From contig NZ_OZ035533.1 in NCBI RefSeq assembly GCF_964033635.1, positions 4,402,001 to 4,466,000 on the forward strand: a stretch of DNA of 64,000 bases, read 5' to 3'. A model generated the notes under the pieces. The model was not told where the DNA came from. It ran no database searches and worked only from the letters and a program-made list of their open reading frames with translations. The translations under genes were made by a program, and so were the position numbers. This stretch comes from Chitinophaga sp. MM2321 (GTDB taxonomy: Bacteria > Bacteroidota > Bacteroidia > Chitinophagales > Chitinophagaceae). Shown here in pieces: positions 3,970 to 64,000 of the stretch (within the stretch, counting starts at the first letter, position 1; every line of letters starts with the position of its first letter).

Positions 3970-4083
3970 AAATGTTGCGTAACATATGTCGGCATTTGTA
4001 CTTGCAAGTAAAGCCGGCCATTTACATGGGGAAGCCGAAAACCATTAAAAAAGAGTAGGCACATTCTCATCAAACAAAGTTTA

Positions 4084-4460: not shown

Positions 4461-4515
4461 AGCCTCTTTCAAAATTCAAGAGGCTGTCTCGTAAGTACGA
4501 GACAGCCTCTTTTTC
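4461..4515 (+). terminator. strong terminator with an alternative competing hairpin
   Basis: A perfect stem is formed by 4478-4493 and 4496-4511 with a minimal loop and is followed by T residues, a classic intrinsic terminator closing the peptide cassette. The left arm can instead pair with 4461-4468 (agcctctt against aagaggct at 4478-4485), so three arms compete for two mutually exclusive hairpins. This may be chance duplication of a terminator arm or a real attenuator. Confidence 0.75.
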
Positions 4516-34147: not shown

Positions 34148-34876
34148 ATGATGAAAAAAGGGTGTACAATACTGGCGCTCCTCTTTACCATTAACGCTAT
34201 TGCGCAGCCGCCACAGAAAAAAGTGCTGGTCTTTTCCAGAACACTGGGATACCACCATGCCTCCATTCCCGAAGGCATAGCCGCTATTCAACAGCTTGGA
34301 GCGCAGCATCAGCTGGGTGTAGACACTACCACCAACAGCGCCTGGTTTACGACAGACACTCTCCGGCATTATGCCGCCGTGATCTTCCTGAGTACCAGCG
34401 GAGAAGTGCTGGACAGCGCACAGCAACGCGCCTTCCAAAAATATATCCGGGCAGGCGGTGGCTACATGGGTATTCATGCGGCATCTACCACCTGCTATAG
34501 CTGGCCCTGGTACGGACGGCTCGTAGGCGCGTATTTTAACGGGCACCCCAAACCACAGGAAGCCATCGTAAACGTAATTGATCATCAGCATGCCACCACC
34601 CGGCACCTGCCCGTAAAATGGAAATGGCTCGATGAATGGTACAACTTCAAAGCATTACCCACCGATGTACACATCCTGCTTAAAGTAGATGAAACCACCT
34701 ATACCGGCGGCAAACACGGGGCAGATCACCCCATAGCATGGTACCATGAATTTGATGGAGGACGCGCTTTTTATACTGCGCTCGGACATTTTGGGACATC
34801 CTATAAGGAACCGCTTTTTCTGCAACACTTGTGGGAAGGCATCGTATACGTCACCGGACCAGGATTACCAGGATGA
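34148..34876 (+). CDS. exported ThuA-domain protein
   Basis: I chose the Met pair at 34148 since it begins a good signal peptide (KKGCTILALLFTINAIAQ); an in-frame ATG lies 33 bases upstream. The 242-residue product has the ThuA (trehalose utilisation/type-1 glutamine amidotransferase-like) fold: VLVFSRTLGYHHASIPEG, FLSTSGEVLDSAQQRAFQKYI, GGGYMGIHAASTT, and PIAWYHEFDGGRAFYTALGH. ThuA-domain proteins are frequent in sugar loci and some act in oxidation or binding of sugars; the reaction here is unknown. The last codons lie inside a large inverted repeat shared with the convergent gene. Confidence 0.85.
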   Translation: MMKKGCTILALLFTINAIAQPPQKKVLVFSRTLGYHHASIPEGIAAIQQLGAQHQLGVDTTTNSAWFTTDTLRHYAAVIFLSTSGEVLDSAQQRAFQKYIRAGGGYMGIHAASTTCYSWPWYGRLVGAYFNGHPKPQEAIVNVIDHQHATTRHLPVKWKWLDEWYNFKALPTDVHILLKVDETTYTGGKHGADHPIAWYHEFDGGRAFYTALGHFGTSYKEPLFLQHLWEGIVYVTGPGLPG

Positions 34877-35070
34877 GTGAAGGATTATAGGATGGGACAA
34901 GAATAGATTAAACATGGATTAAACATGCTTTAAATATGCTTTAAATATGCTTTAAACATGGATGGGACATTGATGGAACATGGATGATCAGTATTTATTT
35001 TTAACATGATATTTTTTAAATCCATCCTTGTCCCATCCTATAATCCTTCACTCATCCTGGTAATCCTGGT
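34858..35070. repeat. large inverted repeat joining the ends of two convergent genes
   Basis: Arms of 53 bases (34858-34910 and 35018-35070) match at 50 positions. The left arm encodes the last residues and stop of the ThuA protein; the right arm encodes the last residues and stop of the epimerase, in a different reading. About 107 bases lie between the arms and contain a tandem repeat. It can act as a bidirectional terminator. It is unrelated in sequence to the palindromes at 38.8 and 59.65 kb. Confidence 0.85.
34925..34957. repeat. three tandem 11-bp units
   Basis: The unit atgctttaaat occurs three times in a row (last base varied), inside the loop of the large inverted repeat. The 11-base period is one helical turn of DNA. 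Flanking bases carry further near copies (attaaacatg, aacatggatg). Confidence 0.75.
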
Positions 35071-36234
35071 CATTCCTTCCAGGCATGCTCTTACATTATG
35101 ATAAGGACACTTCCACAAACCTACTTTATCTTCTTCCATAATACTGTTATCCTTTCTTACACCCCAGTACCATTCACCATTGACTTTATCCCGGATACGC
35201 TCACGGATAAAGTTCCAGCTGTTAACGGCATGTTGCAGGTAGCGCCCTTCAGGATGGAGCTGCCATGCATTGATAAAACCAACCACTGCTTCCGCCTGCG
35301 GCCACCAATGCTTTTCGGCTACCAGGTTGCGCTGCGATGGTTCATATTCATACCATAATCCGCCGTCTTTGTCGATGCCCACAAGTGTGGCATGCGCCAT
35401 TTTCAGGGAGAGTTCTTTGAAGTTGTCTATTAGCAGCGGATCGCCAATGATCTCTGCGGCTTCCAGCAGGAGCCAGCTGGCTTCAATATCATGACCATAG
35501 GAAACCGTGTCGCCTTTTACCCGCCATTGTTCATCAAAGAATAAATGCAGGTGACCGGTCCCGGGATCAATGATCTTATCCCGGAATATCACCAACAGGT
35601 CCCGGATATTTTCTTTCAGCGCAGGTGCAGGCCAGATAGTATAAAGATTGGCATAGGCTTCCAGCACATGCAGGTGTGTGTTCATCGTCTTCTTCTCATT
35701 CGCATCCTTGTTGCTCAGGCGCAGGTCTTTGATCTCCTGCCAGTTGCGGGTAAAGGCTTCCAGGTAGCCGCCATACACCGGATCATAGCTATGCTGCTGC
35801 ACACGGTTGTATAATTCAATGGCCATCTGCTTCACTTCTTCCTGACCACGCGCTTTGTAATATTCGCTGTACGCATACACGGCAAAGGCAATGGCATACA
35901 CCTGTTTTTTTGTTTCTACAGGATGGCCTTTATAATCCACACTCCAGTAAACACCACCAAATTCCTTATCAATAAAGTGACGGGCAAAATAATCATAAGC
36001 CCTGTCTGCCATCTTCAGAAACTGTTCTTCTCCAGTGCTGTTATAGGCAGCAGAAAATGTCCAGAGGATACGCGCATTCAACACCGCTCCTTTTACCGCA
36101 AAGGGATCATGATGATTGTTGTTGTGCAGCTTTCCGAAAAAGCCACCGTGTTCTCTGTCAGGTGTATATTTCATCCAGTAGTCAAGGATGGTATATAACT
36201 CTGTATGAAGTGCCTGCTTTAATTCCGCTTGCAT
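35038..36234 (-). CDS. AGE family epimerase, cellobiose 2-epimerase-like
   Basis: I start at MQAELKQALHTEL (36234), which avoids overlap with the transporter gene; a longer frame adds 16 residues. The 398-residue cytoplasmic enzyme belongs to the acylglucosamine 2-epimerase family: HGGFFGKLHNNN, histidine motifs NTHLHVLEAYANLY, SYGHDIEASWLLLEA, EKHWWPQAEAVVGF and KCPYHNVRACLEG. These fit cellobiose 2-epimerases, which turn beta-1,4-linked disaccharides such as cellobiose or mannobiose into their C2 epimers. It is seven bases downstream of a GPH transporter, so both act on the same imported disaccharide. Its last 10 codons lie in the inverted repeat. Confidence 0.88.
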   Translation of the reverse strand: MQAELKQALHTELYTILDYWMKYTPDREHGGFFGKLHNNNHHDPFAVKGAVLNARILWTFSAAYNSTGEEQFLKMADRAYDYFARHFIDKEFGGVYWSVDYKGHPVETKKQVYAIAFAVYAYSEYYKARGQEEVKQMAIELYNRVQQHSYDPVYGGYLEAFTRNWQEIKDLRLSNKDANEKKTMNTHLHVLEAYANLYTIWPAPALKENIRDLLVIFRDKIIDPGTGHLHLFFDEQWRVKGDTVSYGHDIEASWLLLEAAEIIGDPLLIDNFKELSLKMAHATLVGIDKDGGLWYEYEPSQRNLVAEKHWWPQAEAVVGFINAWQLHPEGRYLQHAVNSWNFIRERIRDKVNGEWYWGVRKDNSIMEEDKVGLWKCPYHNVRACLEGMTRITRMSEGL

Positions 36235-36241
36235 GAAATAG

Positions 36242-37624
36242 TTATTTTCTGCGTTCTTCCAATTCAGATGAGATAGTGGCAATACGTGCTTCCGATAGTG
36301 GATACATCGCTATAAAAATGATCGATAACAGGGACCCTATCGCCGGTAAAAAACTTAGCATGAATAAAATACCTGTTTGCGCATCGGCGCCCTGTACTTC
36401 GTTGGCTTTAAACCCGAAATATCCCAGCAGCCAGCCGGTAAGTGCACCGCCGATTGTCCAGCCGAACTTCTGCGACATGGAAGAAGAAGAGAAGATAAGA
36501 CCGGTAGCACGACGGCCATTTTTCCATTCCGAATAGTCGGCAATATCTGCATACATAGACCATAGCAAGGGAAAAATAATACCTGCGCATACGCTGATCA
36601 CAAACTGGAAAATAAAGATCAGCGTAAGCTGTTCCTTACCCAGCCAGTAAAACAGGATGCTGAGTACAGATGCAATAACCATGGCACCGAGATACGTGTT
36701 TTTCTTTCCTGCTTTATTACCGATGGGAGATGCCAGTATAACCCCCAGGATGTTGGCACCCTGTCCTACCATAAGGTAGAGTGTAGAATACGTAATGCTC
36801 ATGGCGCCCAACGTAAATGCTTCGGTATGCTGAATATAATATTTGAAATAATACAAGGTAGCGCCATCGCGGATAGAGTTGAAGATCAGTGCCGCAATAC
36901 CGGCGCCCAGCAGGATCCACCAGGGTTTATTTTTGCAGAGATCGCGGAAATCATCTTTCAGGGAAGATTGTTCTTCCCTGATGGGTTGTACCCTTTCTTT
37001 CACCCATGAAAAACACAGGAGGAACAGCAATACACAGATGGCCGCAATCACCATCACGCCCAGCTGCCAGCCACGTTCGTGATTGGGTGTACCGCTGTCT
37101 GTTTTACTGAAGAAACCGGCCAGCGGTTCAATCAGTGCCAGCGCAATAAAGCTGCCACCAAATGCAAAGGCCATTCTGAAAGATGCCAGCGTATTCCGCT
37201 CCTTACCATCCGGTGATATAACCCCCAGCAAGGAAGCATACGGTACGTTGATGAGTGAATAGATCATCATCATAACAGAATAGGTAATATAAGCATACAC
37301 CAGTTTTCCGGAAGCAGTAAACCCCGGTGTGGTAAAAGTGAGTACCCCTATCACGCCAAACGGAATGGCCATGTATAAAATGTAAGGCCGGAACTTACCC
37401 CAGCGGGAATTTGTTCTGTCGGCAATAGCCCCCACTACCGGATCAAAAAAGGTATCCCATATACGGGTGATCAGGAACATGGTGCCTACCGCTGCAGCAG
37501 CGAGTCCCATTACATCTGTGTAAAAAAATAACAGGTACATGCCAAACAGCTTCCAGAACATAGAAGAAGCCATATCACCAAAACCATATCCAATTTTTTC
37601 CTGTAACGTTATTCTATTGCTCAT
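36242..37624 (-). CDS. GPH family sugar:cation symporter (MelB-like)
   Basis: The 460-residue inner-membrane protein has twelve predicted helices and glycoside-pentoside-hexuronide symporter motifs: GYGFGDMASSMFW at the N-terminus, MGLAAAAVGTMFLITRIWDTFFDPVVGAIADRT-type helix 2 region, and SMYADIADYSEWKNGRRATGLIFS in the C-terminal half. Such proteins import oligosaccharides with sodium or protons. Tight coupling to the epimerase suggests a beta-linked disaccharide. Confidence 0.92.
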   Translation of the reverse strand: MSNRITLQEKIGYGFGDMASSMFWKLFGMYLLFFYTDVMGLAAAAVGTMFLITRIWDTFFDPVVGAIADRTNSRWGKFRPYILYMAIPFGVIGVLTFTTPGFTASGKLVYAYITYSVMMMIYSLINVPYASLLGVISPDGKERNTLASFRMAFAFGGSFIALALIEPLAGFFSKTDSGTPNHERGWQLGVMVIAAICVLLFLLCFSWVKERVQPIREEQSSLKDDFRDLCKNKPWWILLGAGIAALIFNSIRDGATLYYFKYYIQHTEAFTLGAMSITYSTLYLMVGQGANILGVILASPIGNKAGKKNTYLGAMVIASVLSILFYWLGKEQLTLIFIFQFVISVCAGIIFPLLWSMYADIADYSEWKNGRRATGLIFSSSSMSQKFGWTIGGALTGWLLGYFGFKANEVQGADAQTGILFMLSFLPAIGSLLSIIFIAMYPLSEARIATISSELEERRK

Positions 37625-37775: not shown

Positions 37776-38714
37776 TCACTCCTCCTCTTCCACCGTCAGC
37801 CGGTACCGGGCGGCGTGTAGTAAAGGTGTAATGGGCGTCCCGTTACGCTCTCCCCATACTTTGGTAAAAGCTGCGCCAAAGTAAAAGATAAGGGAAGAAT
37901 AAAACATAAACAAGAGCAATAATACGGTAGATGCAGAGGCACCATAAATAGTATTGATGCTGCTATAGGTGAGCATCACCTTTAAAATTATCTTGCCGAT
38001 TGTAAACAGGATACCGGTCACCAGGGCGCCGGTCATGCCGGTCTTCCACTGGGGGCGGCCATCGGGGATGAAATAGAACACCAGGTAAAACCACATCGTA
38101 ACAATCACCACGGAGATCACATAGTTCAGGGCGCTATGATAGTAGATGGCCAGTGCCGGCAGGTATTCCGTTATATATTTTCCCAGGAATGCCTGTACCG
38201 CATCCGCTATAAAATCAATGATAAAAAGCAGGCCGGCAAACAGGATCACCAACACCCCCCTCAAACGCCCCAGCATGATTTGCCCGAAGCTCTCCCGGCG
38301 CACAGGTTTTATCTTCCATAACTGGTTAATGGATCCCTTGATGATTTTGAATAAAGTGGTGGCTACAAATAATAAAAACAGGAAGCCTGCTATGTTGATC
38401 ATCCAGTTTTGCGCAATACTGCGAAAAGCCCGGAGTGTTTCGAGAATGGCATCGGCAGTTTCTTTTCCGAATAACCCCTCCAGCTGCAACGACAGCCGCT
38501 CTCCCACATGCCGGACCCTGAAAATAAGCCGGAGTAATTGTATAATGATCACCAGGATAGCCGGTAAGGCAAACGTAGTAAAAAAGGCAGTAGCGCCCGC
38601 CAGCCGCAACGGATCATTTGCTTGCAACTCCTTATATGCATCTTTGAAAGATAACAGGAATAGCTGCCAATGTGGACGGATATTTTCTGTAGGACCAGTT
38701 TCCATACGGCCCAA
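37776..38714 (-). CDS. YihY/BrkB family inner-membrane protein
   Basis: The 312-residue protein has six predicted membrane helices and family features LRLAGATAFFTTFALPAILVI, IKGSINQLWKIKP, and a long middle with YFIPDGRPQWKTGMTGALVTG. Members are widespread and their function is poorly known; the old name ribonuclease BN is a misassignment. It is probably unrelated to the sugar loci on both sides. The first Met is used, although METGPTENIR four codons later is possible. A large palindrome sits just upstream. Confidence 0.88.
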   Translation of the reverse strand: MGRMETGPTENIRPHWQLFLLSFKDAYKELQANDPLRLAGATAFFTTFALPAILVIIIQLLRLIFRVRHVGERLSLQLEGLFGKETADAILETLRAFRSIAQNWMINIAGFLFLLFVATTLFKIIKGSINQLWKIKPVRRESFGQIMLGRLRGVLVILFAGLLFIIDFIADAVQAFLGKYITEYLPALAIYYHSALNYVISVVIVTMWFYLVFYFIPDGRPQWKTGMTGALVTGILFTIGKIILKVMLTYSSINTIYGASASTVLLLLFMFYSSLIFYFGAAFTKVWGERNGTPITPLLHAARYRLTVEEEE

Positions 38715-38740
38715 TTTAACGAATATTAGAGATTTAGAGA

Positions 38741-38852
38741 TTTACGAATTTTTTGATTTACGAATGTAGGAATTTAAAATGCAGCGAGGACTTTCGCATA
38801 AATCTCCGCTGCATTTTAAATTCCTACATTCGTAAATCAAAAAATCCGTAAA
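38741..38852. repeat. long palindrome, homologous to the one at 59.65 kb
   Basis: Arms of 49 bases (38741-38789 and 38804-38852) agree at 46 positions with a 39-pair perfect core; the loop is 14 bases. It follows the DUF3823 stop codon by three bases and precedes the YihY start, so it can terminate the arabinose-type locus. Core and loop are alignable with the element at 59590-59723. Confidence 0.88.
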
Positions 38853-38855
38853 TAA

Positions 38856-39560
38856 CTATATTCCCTCTATTTGTTGCACCGTCGAAAAGATCATATCCTC
38901 CACGCCTGCTACCTTCACGCCTATACGTGCAAATACATAGTGCTGCGCAGGCGTAATATCCGGTACATCCACCTGCAAACTCACAGCGGCAGGATTGGTA
39001 ATATCTGCACCGGCTATACTGGCCGATTTGAGGGTGGTTCTGCCATCTACAAACTGTGTTTTGCCGATATATAAATATACCCGTTCAATATCTTTGGCAT
39101 TTATGTCTGTGATGATTTTTTCTACGGCGCAGGTAGCCGTGATTGTTTTACCTGCAGCTGCAAATTTGGGTGTTCTGATCATGTAGTAAGGCATCACTTC
39201 AATGTCCATGGTCTGACTACCGGTGAGATGCAGCAGCATGGTATCCGTGTTGGTTGTTTTATCCGGAACGGACCTGAAAGGCCCCTGCGATGCGGGGATC
39301 ACCAGTTTATAGCTGGCATCGAACAACAGCGCGGAGAAGTTACCTTCCTGGGTAATGCTGACAGTGATCGGTGTATTTTTACCCCAGCCGGGTTCCCATA
39401 ATTCAAAATACACATCGTTATAGCTGACATTGATAGGCTCGCCTTTGTAAACAAGCCTGCCCTGGAAGCTGGAGCCGGGTGCCTGGTAATTATCCTTTTT
39501 GCAGGAAATGCACAGGATACCCAACACCATGCATAAGATATAATGAATATTGCTCTTCAT
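38856..39560 (-). CDS. DUF3823 family lipoprotein
   Basis: The 234-residue lipoprotein has Cys20 in lipobox CISC and two beta-sandwich-like halves, with GSSFQGRLVYKGEPINVS and QLWEPGW-like FELWEPGWG segments of the DUF3823 family. Such proteins are encoded right after SusD and are thought to sit on the cell surface as extra glycan-binding partners. It begins 11 bases after the SusD stop and is the last gene of the 38-50 kb locus. No enzymatic role is visible. Confidence 0.88.
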   Translation of the reverse strand: MKSNIHYILCMVLGILCISCKKDNYQAPGSSFQGRLVYKGEPINVSYNDVYFELWEPGWGKNTPITVSITQEGNFSALLFDASYKLVIPASQGPFRSVPDKTTNTDTMLLHLTGSQTMDIEVMPYYMIRTPKFAAAGKTITATCAVEKIITDINAKDIERVYLYIGKTQFVDGRTTLKSASIAGADITNPAAVSLQVDVPDITPAQHYVFARIGVKVAGVEDMIFSTVQQIEGI

Positions 39561-57349: not shown

Positions 57350-59590
57350 ATGCATGTACCACAATTAATTATTGACCTGGCATTGATTTTAGGCGCGGCG
57401 GGTATCATTACTTTACTATTCAGACGGCTGAAGCAGCCTATGGTGCTGGGTTATATTATAGCGGGCTTTATAGTAGGCCCCAATTTTCATTTATTCCCTT
57501 CTATCAGCGATGGGGAAGGGATAAAAATTTGGTCGGAGATCGGCGTAATTTTCCTTTTATTTTCACTGGGACTGGAATTCAGTTTCAAGAAACTGATGCG
57601 GGTAGGAGGCACGGCTACCATAACGGCATTTGTGGAGATAGCCTGTATTACCGTAGCCGGTTACTTCACCGGGCAACTGATGGGATGGGGTGTGATGGAC
57701 AGCCTGTTCCTGGGCGGGTTACTCGCCAGCTCCTCTACAACCATTATTATCAGGGCATTTGAAGAGTTGGGCATTAAGCAAAAGCCTTTTACCAAAATAG
57801 TTTTCGGGGTACTGGTGATAGAAGATATTGTGGTGATCCTGTTGATGGTATTATTATCTACCATGGCAGTGAGCAAACAATTTGAAGGCACCGAAATGCT
57901 TTTCACCATTACCAAACTGATGTTCTTCCTGGCCGTATGGTTCCTGGCGGGCATCTTCCTGTTGCCTACTTTTCTCAAAAAAATGGAGAAGTACCTCAAC
58001 AACGAAACATTACTGATCCTCAGCATTGCTCTTTGTCTTGGTATGGTGATCCTGGCTACACAGGTAGGCTTCTCTGCTGAACTGGGCGCCTTTATTATGG
58101 GCTCCATCATTGCAGAAACGACTTCGTCTGAAAAAGTGGAACACCTCATCCAGCCATTGAAAGATCTTTTCGGCGCTATCTTCTTTGTATCAGTGGGTAT
58201 GCTCATCAACCCGGAGATGATCGTAGAATATAGATGGCCGGTATTATGGATAACATTGTTAACCGTTTTTGGTAAGTTTTTCACTACTACGCTGGGTGCA
58301 CTGATTTCCGGACGCCCCCTGAAAGAATCAGTACAGGTAGGTATGAGCATGGCGCAGGTGGGTGAATTTGCTTTCATCATCGCTACCCTTGGTGTGACAC
58401 TGGGGGTAACCAGCTCCTTCCTGTTTCCCGTAGCAGTAGGCGTTTCCGCTATCACCACGTTCACTACGCCGTATATGATCAAGTTTTCCACTCCGCTGTA
58501 TAACTGGATGGAGAAAGTTATTCCGGCACGGTGGCTGGCGGCGCTCAACCGCTATAGTGCCAGTTCCCAGACCCTACAGGGCGAAAGCGACTGGCGTATT
58601 GTACTGCGCTCCTACCTGAAAGTGATCATCTTAAACAGTGTGATCCTGATAGCGATCATCCTGCTCAATACCTATTATGTTAGTCCGTTTATAGCCAGAC
58701 ATCTGGAGAATCAGCTGGTGGCCAAATTTATTGCGGTGGTATTAGCCATTGCCATGATGGCGCCGTTCATTTCGGCACTCACCATAAAAAAAGTACAGGG
58801 CAGCGCCTACAAAGCATTGTGGCTGGATTCCAAATACAACCACGGTCCGCTGGTAGTGGTGGAAGTGGTCAGGAACGTACTCGCCGTGATGTTGGTAGGT
58901 TTCCTGCTCATCCAGTTCTTTCCTTTCTGGCAGGCATTGCTCGGCACTTCTATTGTTATGCTTATTGTGTTGCTGGCCTTGCGTCAACAGCTACAGAAAT
59001 ATTACAACCGTATTGAATCCCGCTTCCTGAGCAACCTGAATGCCCGCGAAGATGCAGATGCCGCCGCTAAAAAAGCACAGGCAGCAGACCTGCTACCCTG
59101 GGATGCACAGGTATCTGAAGTAGAAATCAATCCGTGGTCTACCCTGATAGACAAACCCCTGGCTGATTTGCAGCTGCGTGAAAAATTCGGTATCAACGTA
59201 GGCGCTATCAAAAGAGGCGACATCACCATCTACGCACCCACCCGTGAAGAAAAATTATTTCCGTACGACAAAATCATTGCTATCGGCTCAGAAGCCCAGC
59301 TGGAAGAGTTCAACCGGGTATTGAACACCCTGATCCTGGAAAGAAATGATGATGTATCAGATGAAAATATCGGGCTGACCAGCATTGTAGTAGATGAACA
59401 CAACGGCCTGAAAGGACAGACGATTCGCAATTCCGGCATCCGTGAAAAAACAAAAGCACTGGTAGTAGGTATTGCCCGTGGTGGTGAACGTATCCTCAAC
59501 CCCGCTTCTGATACCCAGTTTGAATGGGAAGATGTGGTTTGGCTGGTAGGAGACAGGAAGATGATTGCTGAGTTTACAAGGAAAGGATAA
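57350..59590 (+). CDS. CPA2 family cation:proton antiporter (KefB-like) with TrkA-C domains
   Basis: The 746-residue inner-membrane protein has an Na+/H+ exchanger domain of about twelve helices at residues 1-390 (MVLGYIIAGFIVGPNFHLFP, LLFSLGLEFSFKKL, IEDIVVILL, GAFIMGSIIAETT), a second group of about four helices at 420-570, and cytoplasmic RCK/TrkA-C-type regions at about 600-745. This fits KefB/GerN-like potassium or sodium efflux. The extra membrane module is unusual relative to KefB/KefC, which have a full RCK-N domain instead. It ends at the edge of a long palindrome, with its stop codon forming the first paired base. Confidence 0.9.
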   Translation: MHVPQLIIDLALILGAAGIITLLFRRLKQPMVLGYIIAGFIVGPNFHLFPSISDGEGIKIWSEIGVIFLLFSLGLEFSFKKLMRVGGTATITAFVEIACITVAGYFTGQLMGWGVMDSLFLGGLLASSSTTIIIRAFEELGIKQKPFTKIVFGVLVIEDIVVILLMVLLSTMAVSKQFEGTEMLFTITKLMFFLAVWFLAGIFLLPTFLKKMEKYLNNETLLILSIALCLGMVILATQVGFSAELGAFIMGSIIAETTSSEKVEHLIQPLKDLFGAIFFVSVGMLINPEMIVEYRWPVLWITLLTVFGKFFTTTLGALISGRPLKESVQVGMSMAQVGEFAFIIATLGVTLGVTSSFLFPVAVGVSAITTFTTPYMIKFSTPLYNWMEKVIPARWLAALNRYSASSQTLQGESDWRIVLRSYLKVIILNSVILIAIILLNTYYVSPFIARHLENQLVAKFIAVVLAIAMMAPFISALTIKKVQGSAYKALWLDSKYNHGPLVVVEVVRNVLAVMLVGFLLIQFFPFWQALLGTSIVMLIVLLALRQQLQKYYNRIESRFLSNLNAREDADAAAKKAQAADLLPWDAQVSEVEINPWSTLIDKPLADLQLREKFGINVGAIKRGDITIYAPTREEKLFPYDKIIAIGSEAQLEEFNRVLNTLILERNDDVSDENIGLTSIVVDEHNGLKGQTIRNSGIREKTKALVVGIARGGERILNPASDTQFEWEDVVWLVGDRKMIAEFTRKG

Positions 59591-59723
59591 AAAGAGATGT
59601 AGGGATTTTTTGATTTGCGAATTTAGGAATTTGAAATGCAGCGGAGATAAACACATACGCTTAAATCTCTGCTGCATTTCAAATTCCTAAATTCGCAAAT
59701 CAAAAAATCCCTACATCTCTTTT
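59590..59723. repeat. long palindrome bridging two convergent stop codons
   Basis: Arms of 57 bases (59590-59646 and 59667-59723) match at 56 positions around a 20-base loop. It spans from the last base of the antiporter stop codon to the stop codon of the TonB receptor gene. Its core is homologous to the palindrome at 38741-38852. It should act as a bidirectional terminator. Confidence 0.92.
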
Positions 59724-62283
59724 AGTTGGATGGACTGAAGTTGTAGCGGATCGTTACACCATATGTCCTGGGATCACCCAGTACTGCAGCATATTGTCCT
59801 GCATTACCTGCTGCTACAAGCAATTGCTCAAAGTAATTTTTGTTGAAGAGATTACGTCCCCATACAAATAAGGATACTCCTTTTGCTGCGCGGAAGCCAA
59901 TCCTGCCGTTTACCAGCACGTAGCCGTCAATATTCAGGTAAGGAGAAGGGGATGGACTGGAAGAAAATTCAGAGCGATAGTATCCATCGAGCGCCAGGAA
60001 GTATCTTCCGCCCTGGCCCAGGAATTTTCCACCGATGGATGTTTCAGCGCCCAGGGAAGCTGCCCATTTGGAAATGCCAGGCAGCCTGCTGCCGGAAATG
60101 TCCTTAAAGGCGTTGGCACCTCCGGTTTCTTCCAGTGGTACCGGTGCATTTTTGAAAGATTTGTACTTCCCATCTGTATAGGATGCCGCGCCAAAGATAG
60201 AGAACTGATTGCTAAACCTGATGTTACCATCCAGTTCGGCGCCACGCACCTGCACTTTTTCCGCATTGGCAAGATAGCCACGGTTTACGCCCAGTTCAGC
60301 TGTCTGTACCTGTGTCTGGAAATCCTTGATATCTGTATTGTAAATAGCCAGGTTCAGGGTAGAGGACGCAGAAGGGGTTGTTTTGATACCTACTTCAAAG
60401 TGCTGCACATATTCCGGTTTGACCTGTGCCAGTTCCAGCATCGGTTTACCATCGGCGGTTGGAAGTCCACCAAGATTAAGTCCTACAGGTTTATAGTTGG
60501 TGGAGTAGGTGGCGTAAGTATTGATATTGTTGTTGGCTTTAAACGCAATGGTAAGTTGGCCGGTAAGGTTGGTGTTATCCGTGTTGGCGGAAAATACCTG
60601 GTCTGAATACACTGCTTTCTTCAACGCCAGTAATGCGGGGTCTGTAGTTTCAAGGCCGCCATAAGTTTTGCGGCTGAAATCCAGCTTTTTTTCATCATAA
60701 TTATACCGCAGACCAGGGAGTACGTGCAGCTTTTCTGTGATGGCCCAGTCCAGTTGTCCGAATACCGCCGCGCTGACTGTTTTCAAACGGGAAGTTGTGT
60801 GAATACCGTATCCGTCCAGTAACCCCGGGGTTTTCCATAATTCGCTGGTGGTAGTCTGTGAGAAACGCCATTGCGCCGAACCAGATTCTTCGATATGTAC
60901 AGGATCTGTCTTAAGATCCTGACCGATTGCGAATACGCCGATCACACCACTCAGTTTAGAGGAGAAATCACCGGCATACCTTACTTCCTGTGACCATTGC
61001 TGGTGTTTGGAGGTAGCTTGTGATAAGGACAATACAGACAACCCGGTAAAGTCACGGTCGTTGGAGGGATCCCAATTCCAATAGCGCCAGGCAGAGGTTG
61101 CGGTCAGCGTACCACCGCCTATTTTCGCGTCAACGTTTACGGATACCCCGCCCTGGTCATTACCGGAGCGCCAGGGGGTGTTATTGTCGATCACCCGGTC
61201 GAAAGCATTGCGGCTGGGGAGTTGATAGTTAAGGTCCGCGATGATATTGTCGAACTGCCGGTAATCAGCACGCTGTGTTTTTACGACACCCGCTATTACC
61301 TGCGCATATCCTTCTGGGCGCTGTTTGGAGGCATCCCCGGTGAGGGTGATATTCACACGTTCCGAGGCGGTATACAGGAGCTGAGCCCGCGCGCCGATGT
61401 TGTTGATATCATTCACATTTCTCTGGGTAGACACATTGTAAACGGTACCATCGCGCTGTGTACCGGAGAAGGAAACCTTACCGGCCAGCTTGTTGACAAT
61501 CTTACCGGTAACAGAAGCTTTTGCCTGAATGTATCCGTAGTTGCCATAACTAACTTCCGCGGTAGCACCCGGAGAAAAGGAGGGTTTACGGGTGGTAATG
61601 TTCAGGGCACCTGCCGTGGTGTTCTTGCCGAACAGGGTACCCTGTGGGCCACGTAATACTTCAATCTGCTCAACATCTATAAAATCAAATGTAGTGGCCG
61701 CAGGGCGCGCATAATACACACCGTCCAGGTAAAATCCAACACCCGGATCAATACCGTCGTTGGTCAGGCCGAACGTAGATCCGAGGCCGCGGATATTGAG
61801 CGTGGTGTTACGGGGATTGGAGGAATAGAGTTGCACAGAGGGGATCAGCTCTTTCACCCGGTTCACGTTAAAAGAGCCGGATTCCTCGATGACGCCACCC
61901 CGTACCACTGAAATGGCAATAGGCACATTTTGTATTTTCTCGTTACGGCGACGTGCAGTAACAGATACCTCATTGATTTGGCGGCTGTCTATTTTGAGAA
62001 TGATCTCCACGTTGCTGTGGTTTTGCGCTGTCACTTCCACTTCACGGGTGGCAAAACCAATGGATCTAACTGTCAGGGAAGCGGGAAAGGGGGCATAGGT
62101 GCTCAAACTGAATTCTCCCTTATTGTCTGCAATAGCATAGTTGGTAGAACCATTGAGATTAATGGTAGTACCAGGTACAGGGGATCCTTCTTCTCCCTTA
62201 ACAACACCCTTAATTACTTTTTGTGCAATTGCGGTGTTGACCACAAAGGCTGTAAGGAATAGCAGCGATAGTAATCTTTTCAT
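59722..62283 (-). CDS. TonB-dependent receptor (non-SusC type) with carboxypeptidase-like N-terminal domain
   Basis: The 853-residue outer-membrane protein has a signal peptide, a carboxypeptidase-regulatory-like domain at about 22-105 (IKGVVKGEEGSPVPGTTI), a plug (NEVSVTARRRNEKIQNVPIA as TonB-box/plug entry; VEQIEVLRGPQGTLFGKNTTAGALNI) and a 22-strand-type barrel ending GVTIRYNF. The RGPQGTLFGKNT motif places it with siderophore/cobalamin/nutrient receptors rather than SusC. No SusD, permease or siderophore gene is adjacent, so the ligand is unknown. Confidence 0.93.
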   Translation of the reverse strand: MKRLLSLLFLTAFVVNTAIAQKVIKGVVKGEEGSPVPGTTINLNGSTNYAIADNKGEFSLSTYAPFPASLTVRSIGFATREVEVTAQNHSNVEIILKIDSRQINEVSVTARRRNEKIQNVPIAISVVRGGVIEESGSFNVNRVKELIPSVQLYSSNPRNTTLNIRGLGSTFGLTNDGIDPGVGFYLDGVYYARPAATTFDFIDVEQIEVLRGPQGTLFGKNTTAGALNITTRKPSFSPGATAEVSYGNYGYIQAKASVTGKIVNKLAGKVSFSGTQRDGTVYNVSTQRNVNDINNIGARAQLLYTASERVNITLTGDASKQRPEGYAQVIAGVVKTQRADYRQFDNIIADLNYQLPSRNAFDRVIDNNTPWRSGNDQGGVSVNVDAKIGGGTLTATSAWRYWNWDPSNDRDFTGLSVLSLSQATSKHQQWSQEVRYAGDFSSKLSGVIGVFAIGQDLKTDPVHIEESGSAQWRFSQTTTSELWKTPGLLDGYGIHTTSRLKTVSAAVFGQLDWAITEKLHVLPGLRYNYDEKKLDFSRKTYGGLETTDPALLALKKAVYSDQVFSANTDNTNLTGQLTIAFKANNNINTYATYSTNYKPVGLNLGGLPTADGKPMLELAQVKPEYVQHFEVGIKTTPSASSTLNLAIYNTDIKDFQTQVQTAELGVNRGYLANAEKVQVRGAELDGNIRFSNQFSIFGAASYTDGKYKSFKNAPVPLEETGGANAFKDISGSRLPGISKWAASLGAETSIGGKFLGQGGRYFLALDGYYRSEFSSSPSPSPYLNIDGYVLVNGRIGFRAAKGVSLFVWGRNLFNKNYFEQLLVAAGNAGQYAAVLGDPRTYGVTIRYNFSPSN

Positions 62284-62493
62284 GATAATGATAATATAGG
62301 TTATGTGATGATATTTGGTTGCTATAATAGTCTATATAGTCTACCAACTTGGTAGACAAATATAATACTGTGAGAGAACTTTTTTATATTTTTTTTAACA
62401 ATGCAGGATTTATGCTTGGGGAGAAAACGAAAAATTAGTGGGGGCGAGCGTTAAAGTGTATGCGTTATAAAGTGGAGTTATTGATGGTAGTAA

Positions 62494-62545
62494 TTATTTA
62501 TTTATTTAGAGATGTAGATATTTACATCTCTAAATAAATAAATAA
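62494..62545. terminator. perfect 23-bp hairpin downstream of aconitase
   Basis: Arms 62494-62516 and 62523-62545 are exactly complementary with a six-base loop. The outer part consists of four-base attt/aaat repeats and the inner part is agagatgta. It starts eight bases after the aconitase stop codon (read leftward), so it most likely terminates that transcript. The inner sequence recalls the outer arm of the 59.65 kb palindrome. Confidence 0.8.
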
Positions 62546-62552
62546 ATGCTTT

Positions 62553-64000
62553 CTATCCTTTCTTCAAAAAGTCTCTCAACACAAACTGTAATATTCCGCC
62601 ATTGCGGTAGTATTCAATTTCTATAGCAGAGTTTAAGCGGCATTTCGCTTTAAAAACGATGGCAGCTCCTGTTGCCGGTTTAGCCGTTACCGTTACTATT
62701 TTTCCAGGAGTAAGATCTTGTGCAATATCCGTGATGCTATATGATTCTGTACCGGATAATCCCAACGATGCTGCGGTTTCTTCATTCACATATTCCAGTG
62801 GGAGTACACCCATTCCTACCAGGTTGCTGCGGTGAATCCGTTCATAGCTTTCTGCAATAACAGCTTTCACGCCCAACAGGTTGGTGCCCTTCGCGGCCCA
62901 GTCGCGGGAAGAGCCGCTGCCATATTCTTTGCCGGCCAGTATGATCAAAGGCACTTTTGCCGCAGCATATTGTATGGCGGCATCGTATACAGACAGCACC
63001 ACGCCCTGCGGAATCATAGTAGTAAAGCCACCTTCTTTGGGAGAGAGTTCATTTTTAATCCGCACGTTGGCGAAAGTACCACGGATCATCACTTCATGAT
63101 TCCCCCTGCGTGAGCCGTAAGAATTAAACATCTTAGGATCTATGCCGCAGTCCAGCAAATATTTGCCGGCAGGCGTATCTGATTTGAAAGAGCCTGCGGG
63201 TGATATATGGTCTGTAGTAACAGAATCGCCCAGTTTCAGCAATACACGGGCGTCTTTAACGTCTTCTATCGCAGCCCATTCTTCCGGCAGCCCGTTAAAA
63301 AACGGCGCTTCTTTGATGTAGGTAGAGGTCTGGCTCCAGTGATAATCTTTCCCGGATGGCGCCTGTAGTCCTTGCCATTGTTCATCTCCATCGAATATAA
63401 CAGCGTATATTTTTTCAAAATCTTCCTGCTTCACAGCAGCAGCTACAGCTTCATTGATTTCCTCCTGGGTGGGCCATATGTCGCGCAGAAACACGGGTTC
63501 TCCGTTAGGATCGTAGCCCAACGGATCGTTGAGCATGTCCACATCGATGCGGCCGGTGATAGCATAGGCCACTACCAGCAGTGGCGATGCCAGGAAGTTC
63601 ATCTTCACCTGCGGATGTACCCTGGCTTCAAAGTTACGGTTGCCGGACAGCACGGAGGCGACAATCAGGTTGCCCCTATCCACTGCTTCTGCAATATGCG
63701 GTGGCAGCGGACCACTGTTACCAATACACGAAGTACAGCCATAGCCTACGGTATGAAAACGCAGTGCTTCCAGCTCATATAACAATCCTGAACGTTTCAG
63801 GTATTCCGTTACTACCCTGGAACCAGGCGCCAGGCTTGTTTTTACCCAGGGCTTCACATTCAGCCCGCGGCTGATGGCTTTCCGGGCTACCAGCCCCGCA
63901 CCTATCATTACACTGGGATTGGATGTATTGGTGCAACTGGTAATGGCGGCGATAGCAATAGCGCCATCACTCAGCACATATTCCTCATTTTTTAGTTTGA
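62553..64000 (-). CDS. acnA: aconitate hydratase, C-terminal part (cut by window end)
   Basis: The frame is open to the last base of the window and extends beyond it; about 482 residues are seen of roughly 900. The enzyme isomerises citrate and isocitrate in the TCA cycle with a [4Fe-4S] cluster. Visible cluster cysteines: ITSCTNTSNP, and the pair in GYGCTSCIGNSGP. The C-terminal swivel domain follows with RVLLKLGDSVTTDHISPAGS, GRRGNHEVMIRGTFAN and GKEYGSGSSRDWAAKG. A GTG at 63977 is not the start because homology continues upstream (KLKNEEYVLSDG). Confidence 0.95.
   Translation of the reverse strand, partial: KLKNEEYVLSDGAIAIAAITSCTNTSNPSVMIGAGLVARKAISRGLNVKPWVKTSLAPGSRVVTEYLKRSGLLYELEALRFHTVGYGCTSCIGNSGPLPPHIAEAVDRGNLIVASVLSGNRNFEARVHPQVKMNFLASPLLVVAYAITGRIDVDMLNDPLGYDPNGEPVFLRDIWPTQEEINEAVAAAVKQEDFEKIYAVIFDGDEQWQGLQAPSGKDYHWSQTSTYIKEAPFFNGLPEEWAAIEDVKDARVLLKLGDSVTTDHISPAGSFKSDTPAGKYLLDCGIDPKMFNSYGSRRGNHEVMIRGTFANVRIKNELSPKEGGFTTMIPQGVVLSVYDAAIQYAAAKVPLIILAGKEYGSGSSRDWAAKGTNLLGVKAVIAESYERIHRSNLVGMGVLPLEYVNEETAASLGLSGTESYSITDIAQDLTPGKIVTVTAKPATGAAIVFKAKCRLNSAIEIEYYRNGGILQFVLRDFLKKG

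Follow-up and report, generated by a model that had tools for sequence, protein, structure and literature searches.

Palindromes built of iterated words at gene ends in Chitinophaga and the mirrored change of their arms

Two long palindromes in a 64,000-nucleotide stretch of Chitinophaga DNA (the window) share a core in which differences in one arm are matched by complementary differences in the other. This locus raises the question of whether such mirrored change comes from selection on a paired RNA, from correction of one arm by the other in the DNA, or from the dispersal of ready-made palindromes. The genome containing the window comprises 6.78 Mb in a single contig and belongs to a soil bacterium.

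Palindromes of the window and their family in the genome

Both palindromes are present where the initial annotation had placed them (38741-38852 and 59590-59723), and the three compensated differences that it had read in the core were confirmed: A/G, G/T and A/G in the left arm and T/C, C/A and T/C at the partner positions, one of the three being a transversion. The first palindrome, I1, spans 38718-38875. Its arms (38718-38793 and 38800-38875) are 83% complementary at full extension and near-perfect within 38741-38852, and its hairpin tip, AATGCAGC..GCTGCATT, lies at 38778-38815 (tip-pattern match converted to window coordinates). I1 occupies the gap from just past the stop codon of a gene with DUF3823 domains (38856-39560, minus strand) towards the start of a gene for a BrkB-family (PF03631) membrane protein (37776-38714, minus strand). 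The second palindrome, I2 (59590-59723), has arms at 59590-59648 and 59665-59723 that are 98% complementary and a tip at 59635-59678, converted in the same way. It fills the entire gap between an antiporter gene with Na_H_Exchanger and TrkA_C domains (57350-59590, plus strand) and the convergent gene of a TonB-dependent receptor (59722-62283, minus strand), touching both stop codons.

Two more palindromes were found in the window. I3 (34857-35071) belongs to another word family, with GGATT-type words in both arms, and on the right it runs into the 3' end of the open reading frame (ORF) 35038-36282; I4 (62489-62550) has arms of ATTT words and adjoins the stop codon of ORF 62553-63977. All four long palindromes, none of them assigned a strand, stand at the 3' end of an ORF. 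Four palindromes with a score of at least 22 were observed in the window, against none in three crude two-base-block shuffles. The palindromes had no Rfam match at the gathering score, the sole match in the window being a DUF805b RNA (RF02914, 46.4 bits) at 4025-4061 on the plus strand. At 4478-4511 lies a terminator-like inverted repeat whose perfect 16-bp arms are separated by 2 nt.

I1 and I2 do belong to a dispersed family, as had been proposed, and at least 75 copies were analysed in this genome. The set consists of palindromes carrying the tip or the arm words, collected with their flanks by DNA and pattern searches, and is a lower bound, as at least one known place (113629-113728) lies outside it. 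With I1 as a DNA query, 80 strand-wise matches were obtained (best 40 of 204 candidate places scored), and the tip pattern occurred 66 times, against 0 for the pattern read backwards. The proposed location at gene ends also holds: the palindrome edge was within 15 nt of a stop codon on 102 of 119 gene-3'-facing sides. By our longest-ORF rule, 46 copies lie between convergent genes, 27 between codirectional genes and 2 between divergent genes.

Family members have a common layout, in which the hairpin tip stands between arms of 8-nt words, ATTTNNNN, that extend to the neighbouring stop codons; the arms are about 50-60 nt in most of the 75 copies. The consensus of 150 aligned half-elements reads ATTTAGGG-ATTTTTTG-ATTTACGA-ATTTAGGG-ATTTGAA, followed by the tip ATGCAGCGGAGAT. 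Palindromes of GGATT/CAGGATT words occur in the same genome (34857-35071 of the window; positions 362-533 of the fetched stretch L018) and resemble the palindrome of C. vietnamensis at the I2 site (L147). Since they stand beside the ATTT palindromes, this genome has more than one word family.

The initial annotation had suggested a RAYT-like transposase as a partner of the family. No PF01797 match at E <= 0.001 was found in this genome (8 candidates scored) or in the relative G303 (6 candidates scored), the search covering the transposase domain only. We rejected the RAYT reading on this ground; arms of about 50-60 nt also exceed the REP size of 20-40 bp. Insertion with target duplication gained no support, no duplication of at least 3 nt being found at the edges of the 75 copies (k = 3, 0/75; k = 4, 1/75); with shifted edges and k = 5, 7 were seen against 12.4 expected. 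These results bear on the idea that MITE-like palindromes are placed ready-made at gene ends by a transposase or other mobility system, or spread by whole-hairpin conversion. Each mirrored string would then be a mobile lineage of its own, and arm copying at the locus would be unneeded. Dispersal itself is clear from the many copies with common words, order and tip, and direct matches of 2 nt right at the edges are fairly frequent (17 of 75 copies; shuffled mean 10.2, maximum 17), although the latter would be expected of a self-complementary AT or TA step in a palindrome. The lack of a PF01797 match and of a target duplication of at least 3 nt argues against such mobility.

Agreement between the arms

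Within the words, ATTT is nearly fixed, and the remaining four bases vary among copies yet match between the arms. Slot by slot, the two arms agreed in 42, 60, 59, 67 and 72 of the 75 copies, compared with shuffled means of 8.1, 27.2, 31.2, 14.3 and 33.8. All five words agreed in 39 copies (shuffled mean 1.4, maximum 7 in 2000 shuffles), and these 39 fully mirrored copies carry 29 distinct word strings.

Compensation of the arm differences, as claimed for I1 and I2, stood in part for the family. Among all 75 copies, 257 departures from the consensus were present in both arms, which agrees with the claim, but 182 were present in one arm only, which does not, and 31 affected both arms differently. 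Of the departures private to one copy, 15 affected a single arm and 9 affected both. When the 14 copies out of register were dropped, the remaining 61 had 192 departures in both arms, 64 in one arm and 8 in both but different, with 12 private departures in both arms and 9 in one. The both-arm departures of this subset comprised 101 transversions and 91 transitions, and the single-arm departures 24 transversions and 40 transitions.

A second word family, AAAGCNN, gave a similar picture. Among the matches listed, 26 loci had AAAGC arrays on both sides, all from G310, G344 and G345 except one of G312. At these loci, 51 of 64 dinucleotide letters were mirrored and 17 loci were mirrored fully, the G312 locus not being among them; shuffling of the right arms gave a mean mirrored fraction of 0.24 (maximum 0.44), and in none of 5000 shuffles were more than 6 loci mirrored fully. 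The left strings were distinct in 25 of the 26 loci, so that few loci look like copies of each other. This speaks against ready-made mobile palindromes, which we regard as unlikely, although presence and absence between relatives, described below, would suit them.

Selection on RNA pairing, which had also been put forward, would require the stems at transcript 3' ends to be functional and their point mutations to be compensated one by one. Taken in isolation, the long stems of I1 and I2 are stable (-65.0 to -94.5 kcal/mol), and their location after stop codons is in agreement with this reading. If transcript pairing were selected, G-U pairs on the sense strand should be tolerated above A-C mismatches. 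At codirectional sites, 30 G-U, 22 A-C and 49 other mismatches were counted; at convergent sites, which are directionless, the numbers were 38, 38 and 42. The mismatch spectrum thus lends the claim no clear support, with a weak G-U excess at most in small numbers. Transversions make up about half of the mirrored departures, mirroring extends to whole words and to an indel (see below), there is hardly any drift in the first half of each word, and several orthologous sites have no long arms. Taken with these points, RNA pairing is a very improbable source of the mirrored change.

The tip fits a putative terminator role. Counted strand-wise, the 9 nt after GCTGC held 3 T in 11 cases, 4 in 86, 5 in 31, 6 in 5 and 8 in 2; with 4 T as the commonest count, this genome has a weak T-run behind the tip. 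In a stretch of G303 (L107), a family palindrome (940-1057) adjoins a separate hairpin with a T-run (1059-1094).

The same gene ends in related genomes

Counts of three words were made for 79 Chitinophaga genomes, both strands included. Controls with the reversed pattern gave 0-2 matches per genome, except 6 in G379 for GATTTACGRATTT and 3 in G316 for AATTRCGAATTRCGAATT. GATTTACGRATTT matched in 35 of the 79 genomes, most often in G381 (407), G303 (206), the genome of the window (G000; 180), G352 (130), G364 (97) and G337 (75), less often in G342 (62), G379 (49), G380 (19), G369 (12) and G341 (7), and 0-2 times in the rest. AATTRCGAATTRCGAATT matched in 28 of 79, with 1599 matches in G364, 459 in G352, 269 in G380, 216 in G350, 123 in G316 and 6 in G000. 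AAAGCNNAAAGCNNAAAGC matched in 35 of 79, with high counts in G368 (1232), G316 (522), G367 (428), G370 (318), G344 (265) and G310 (263) and lower ones in G311 (190), G345 (90), G000 (2) and G364 (1). The leading word therefore differs between genomes; some genomes carry more than one word, and many are without any of the three. The same palindrome layout with different words was observed in some other Chitinophaga genomes. In 20 stretches of G310 and G337 with this layout, 20 of 23 gene-3'-facing sides were within 15 nt of a stop codon by our ORF rule.

A family-level scan of 294 genomes had given 0-3 tip matches in the 293 others, as if the tip were specific to G000. This impression was wrong, as only 5 of the 293 belong to the same genus and both tip and words were seen in other Chitinophaga. 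When 40 relatives were sampled, a search with the palindrome hit G000 and G303 alone. Stretches of 20 kb from G294, G300, G301 and G306, taken without selection, contained 6 palindromes with a score of at least 22 in 400 kb in total, indicating that the palindrome density of G000 is not genus-wide. In G300, an identical zero-loop perfect palindrome occurred twice in the 100 kb sampled (L181, 1417-1480; L183, 3467-3540). At the class level, AATTRCG matched in 45 of 395 genomes, G000 included, mostly with few matches.

Genome-specific words with up to hundreds of copies would also be expected of signals, for instance sites bound by a genome-specific DNA- or RNA-binding protein, or uptake-type sequences, whose inverted pairs were later used as transcript ends. 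Departure from the word consensus was 3.2% in the ATTT half and 21.7% in the other half, and this conserved first half would suit a signal; uptake sequences in terminators offer a precedent, as far as the part of the report at hand describes them (PMC1852404). However, a signal would require no mirroring of the variable half, and several word families can coexist in one genome. We therefore give this origin little credence.

The locus of the family copy at 405948 had matches in 79 of 79 genomes over at least one flanking gene, and the best 30 of the 79 loci were read. Palindromes with a score of at least 30 were present in 11, weaker hairpins in 18, and none was found in 1. The median gap between stop codon and arm was 2 nt for the long palindromes and 18.5 nt for the short hairpins. 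The words of the long palindromes differed: ATTT octamers in G000, G303, G369, G379 and G381, AATTRCG in G364, AAAGC in G367 and G368, TAGC words in G344, and others in G350 and G372. The weaker group includes word arrays with unmatched arms in G337, G342, G352 and G380. In G342, G337, G352 and G379, the arm words are similar but do not match, and their persistence argues against fast correction. G295 has a plain hairpin with a nearly identical tip followed by the T-rich ATTTTTATTTTA, and for this reason the tip was taken as a terminator-type core.

The I2 site was compared in 15 named relatives, all Chitinophaga, found through the antiporter gene that ends there. Seven have a palindrome with a score of at least 22; that of C. 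fulva uses ATTT octamers as in G000, and the remaining six are built of different words. In C. qingshengii, the site holds a plain hairpin of 15 bp. The TonB-dependent receptor gene (59722-62283) stands between the antiporter gene and an aconitase-domain gene in G000; in most of the named relatives, the aconitase end apparently follows the antiporter gene directly, as judged by eye from sequence.

We then compared 400 kb each of the close relatives G311 and G367. An orthologous interval was found for 26 of 26 palindromes with a score of at least 25, with flanks 88-98% identical, and these were read as 19 sites. A word palindrome was present in at least one genome at 15 sites: 7 were shared, 7 were confined to one genome, and 1 had a different word family in each. 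Of the 15, 8 are thus limited to one genome or changed in word family. At 5 of the 7 single-genome sites (G367 positions 428148, 462265, 500752, 569587 and 579303), G311 has a plain hairpin instead; that at 500752 is a 9-bp hairpin read by eye, under the script threshold. Since the G311 hairpin is missing where the G367 palindrome stands, one has replaced the other.

The 7 shared sites were scored by an automatic column count that also took in ragged ends and loops; these account for most of the indel columns and for several of the rest. The count gave 10 mirrored and 60 single-arm substitutions, 9 mirrored indel columns and 4 single-arm indels, 37 columns with the same difference between the arms in each species, and 47 of other kinds. 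In clean stems read by eye, 7 mirrored substitutions (5 of them transversions) and 1 mirrored one-base indel were found at 5 of the 7 sites, and the changes at 1764616 and 1832021 were single-arm only. The clearest case is 1891419/588082, where AAGTAGC/GCTACTT corresponds to AAAAAGC/GCTTTTT; the inner stem and loop are unchanged, and the outermost bases differ. For the plain hairpins at 1858701 and 305593, a perfect copy in one genome faces an imperfect one in the second, as quasipalindrome correction would predict. At the intervals orthologous to G310:C4:58590-58724, both G311 and G367 retain the word array of one arm only, the loop and partner arm being gone.

Proposed origin and comparison with known systems

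Arm-to-arm correction, the other explanation first offered, fits the compensated changes. Our preferred explanation, which we hold to be somewhat better than even, is that in terminator-type hairpins one arm is overwritten from the other in episodes of template switching at the DNA level, and that such hairpins also spread within the genome. A short core stem, as in the plain terminator-type hairpin at the same site in some relatives, would be the starting point. Inverted arrays of 7-9 nt words would lengthen it outward in both directions, up to the neighbouring stop codons. From time to time, one arm would be copied from the other during DNA synthesis by hairpin template switching, and the likeness of the arms would come from single copying events, not from slow compensation of an RNA stem. 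Cores and words may spread among the gene ends of a genome and replace the resident hairpin. What serves the cell is probably the core, which would end transcripts from both sides, and the long arms may be a by-product.

Several observations argue for arm copying: mirrored strings are private to loci (29 distinct in 39 copies; 25 of 26 AAAGC loci), about half of the both-arm departures are transversions, orthologous sites have mirrored changes including an indel, and no clear wobble excess was detected. The arms that reach stop codons and the word palindromes facing plain hairpins at 5 sites of G311 and G367 favour the explanation as a whole. Against copying, single-arm changes are common (182 versus 257 in both arms; private, 15 versus 9; orthologs, 60 versus 10), clean mirrored changes are lacking at 2 of the 7 shared sites, the near-fixed ATTT half is not accounted for, and conversion of whole hairpins by another family member could also give mirrored differences. 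The G303 palindrome beside a separate, ordinary terminator-like hairpin also counts against the explanation. A broader view is possible but in our judgement doubtful: that word palindromes are an undescribed class of dispersed repeats that overwrite gene-end hairpins with the current word of the genome, carrying private, mirror-copied strings, such that the same end would cycle between a plain hairpin and unrelated words while coding ends are spared.

Compensatory stem change is usually taken as proof of a selected RNA structure. Gene-end word palindromes provide a natural test of how far arm copying in DNA can imitate covariation and, changing fast as they do, a place to measure it. A further question is what copies a word family genome-wide while holding half of each word constant.

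Word-based searching of the open-access literature turned up no earlier account of gene-end word palindromes, and the known systems share single features with them. As expected of quasipalindromes corrected by template switching, arms changed together at orthologous loci, beside many single-arm changes. Template switching has been described, in the part of the report at hand, as creating and maintaining RNA hairpins, with multi-base compensatory changes and perfect stems arising in one event (PMC8794818). The proposed mechanism of mirrored change is alike, but the stems treated there are single ones of RNA genes, whereas many gene-end palindromes with iterated words and genome-specific families are found here. 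Nematomorpha mitochondria have long inverted repeats within coding sequence whose arms evolve in concert, for which template switching was also proposed (PMC6649704); these are mitochondrial and within genes, and the accessible part of that report mentions neither iterated words nor a gene-end position. REPs are dispersed extragenic palindromes as well, described in the excerpted source as 20-40 bp long with a GTAG or CGTC tag, the GTAG ones being tied to RAYTs (PMC3733652); they differ from the present family in size and in the PF01797 gene, which was not found here. The uptake-sequence terminators of Neisseria and Pasteurellaceae share a genome-specific short word, its inverted pairing and the position at gene ends, but have, in what the source sets out, one word per arm, without arrays or mirrored variable letters (PMC1852404). 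The TAACTGA heptamer repeats are iterated 7-nt intergenic words with a patchy distribution that includes some Bacteroidetes; unlike the arms here, they are direct and mostly precede start codons, with one inverted case, in a Maribeggiatoa genome, in the portion of the report available (PMC4679880). The template-switch mechanism, REPs, uptake-sequence terminators and direct heptamer repeats are thus the systems known from this literature, in which word palindromes at gene ends did not turn up.
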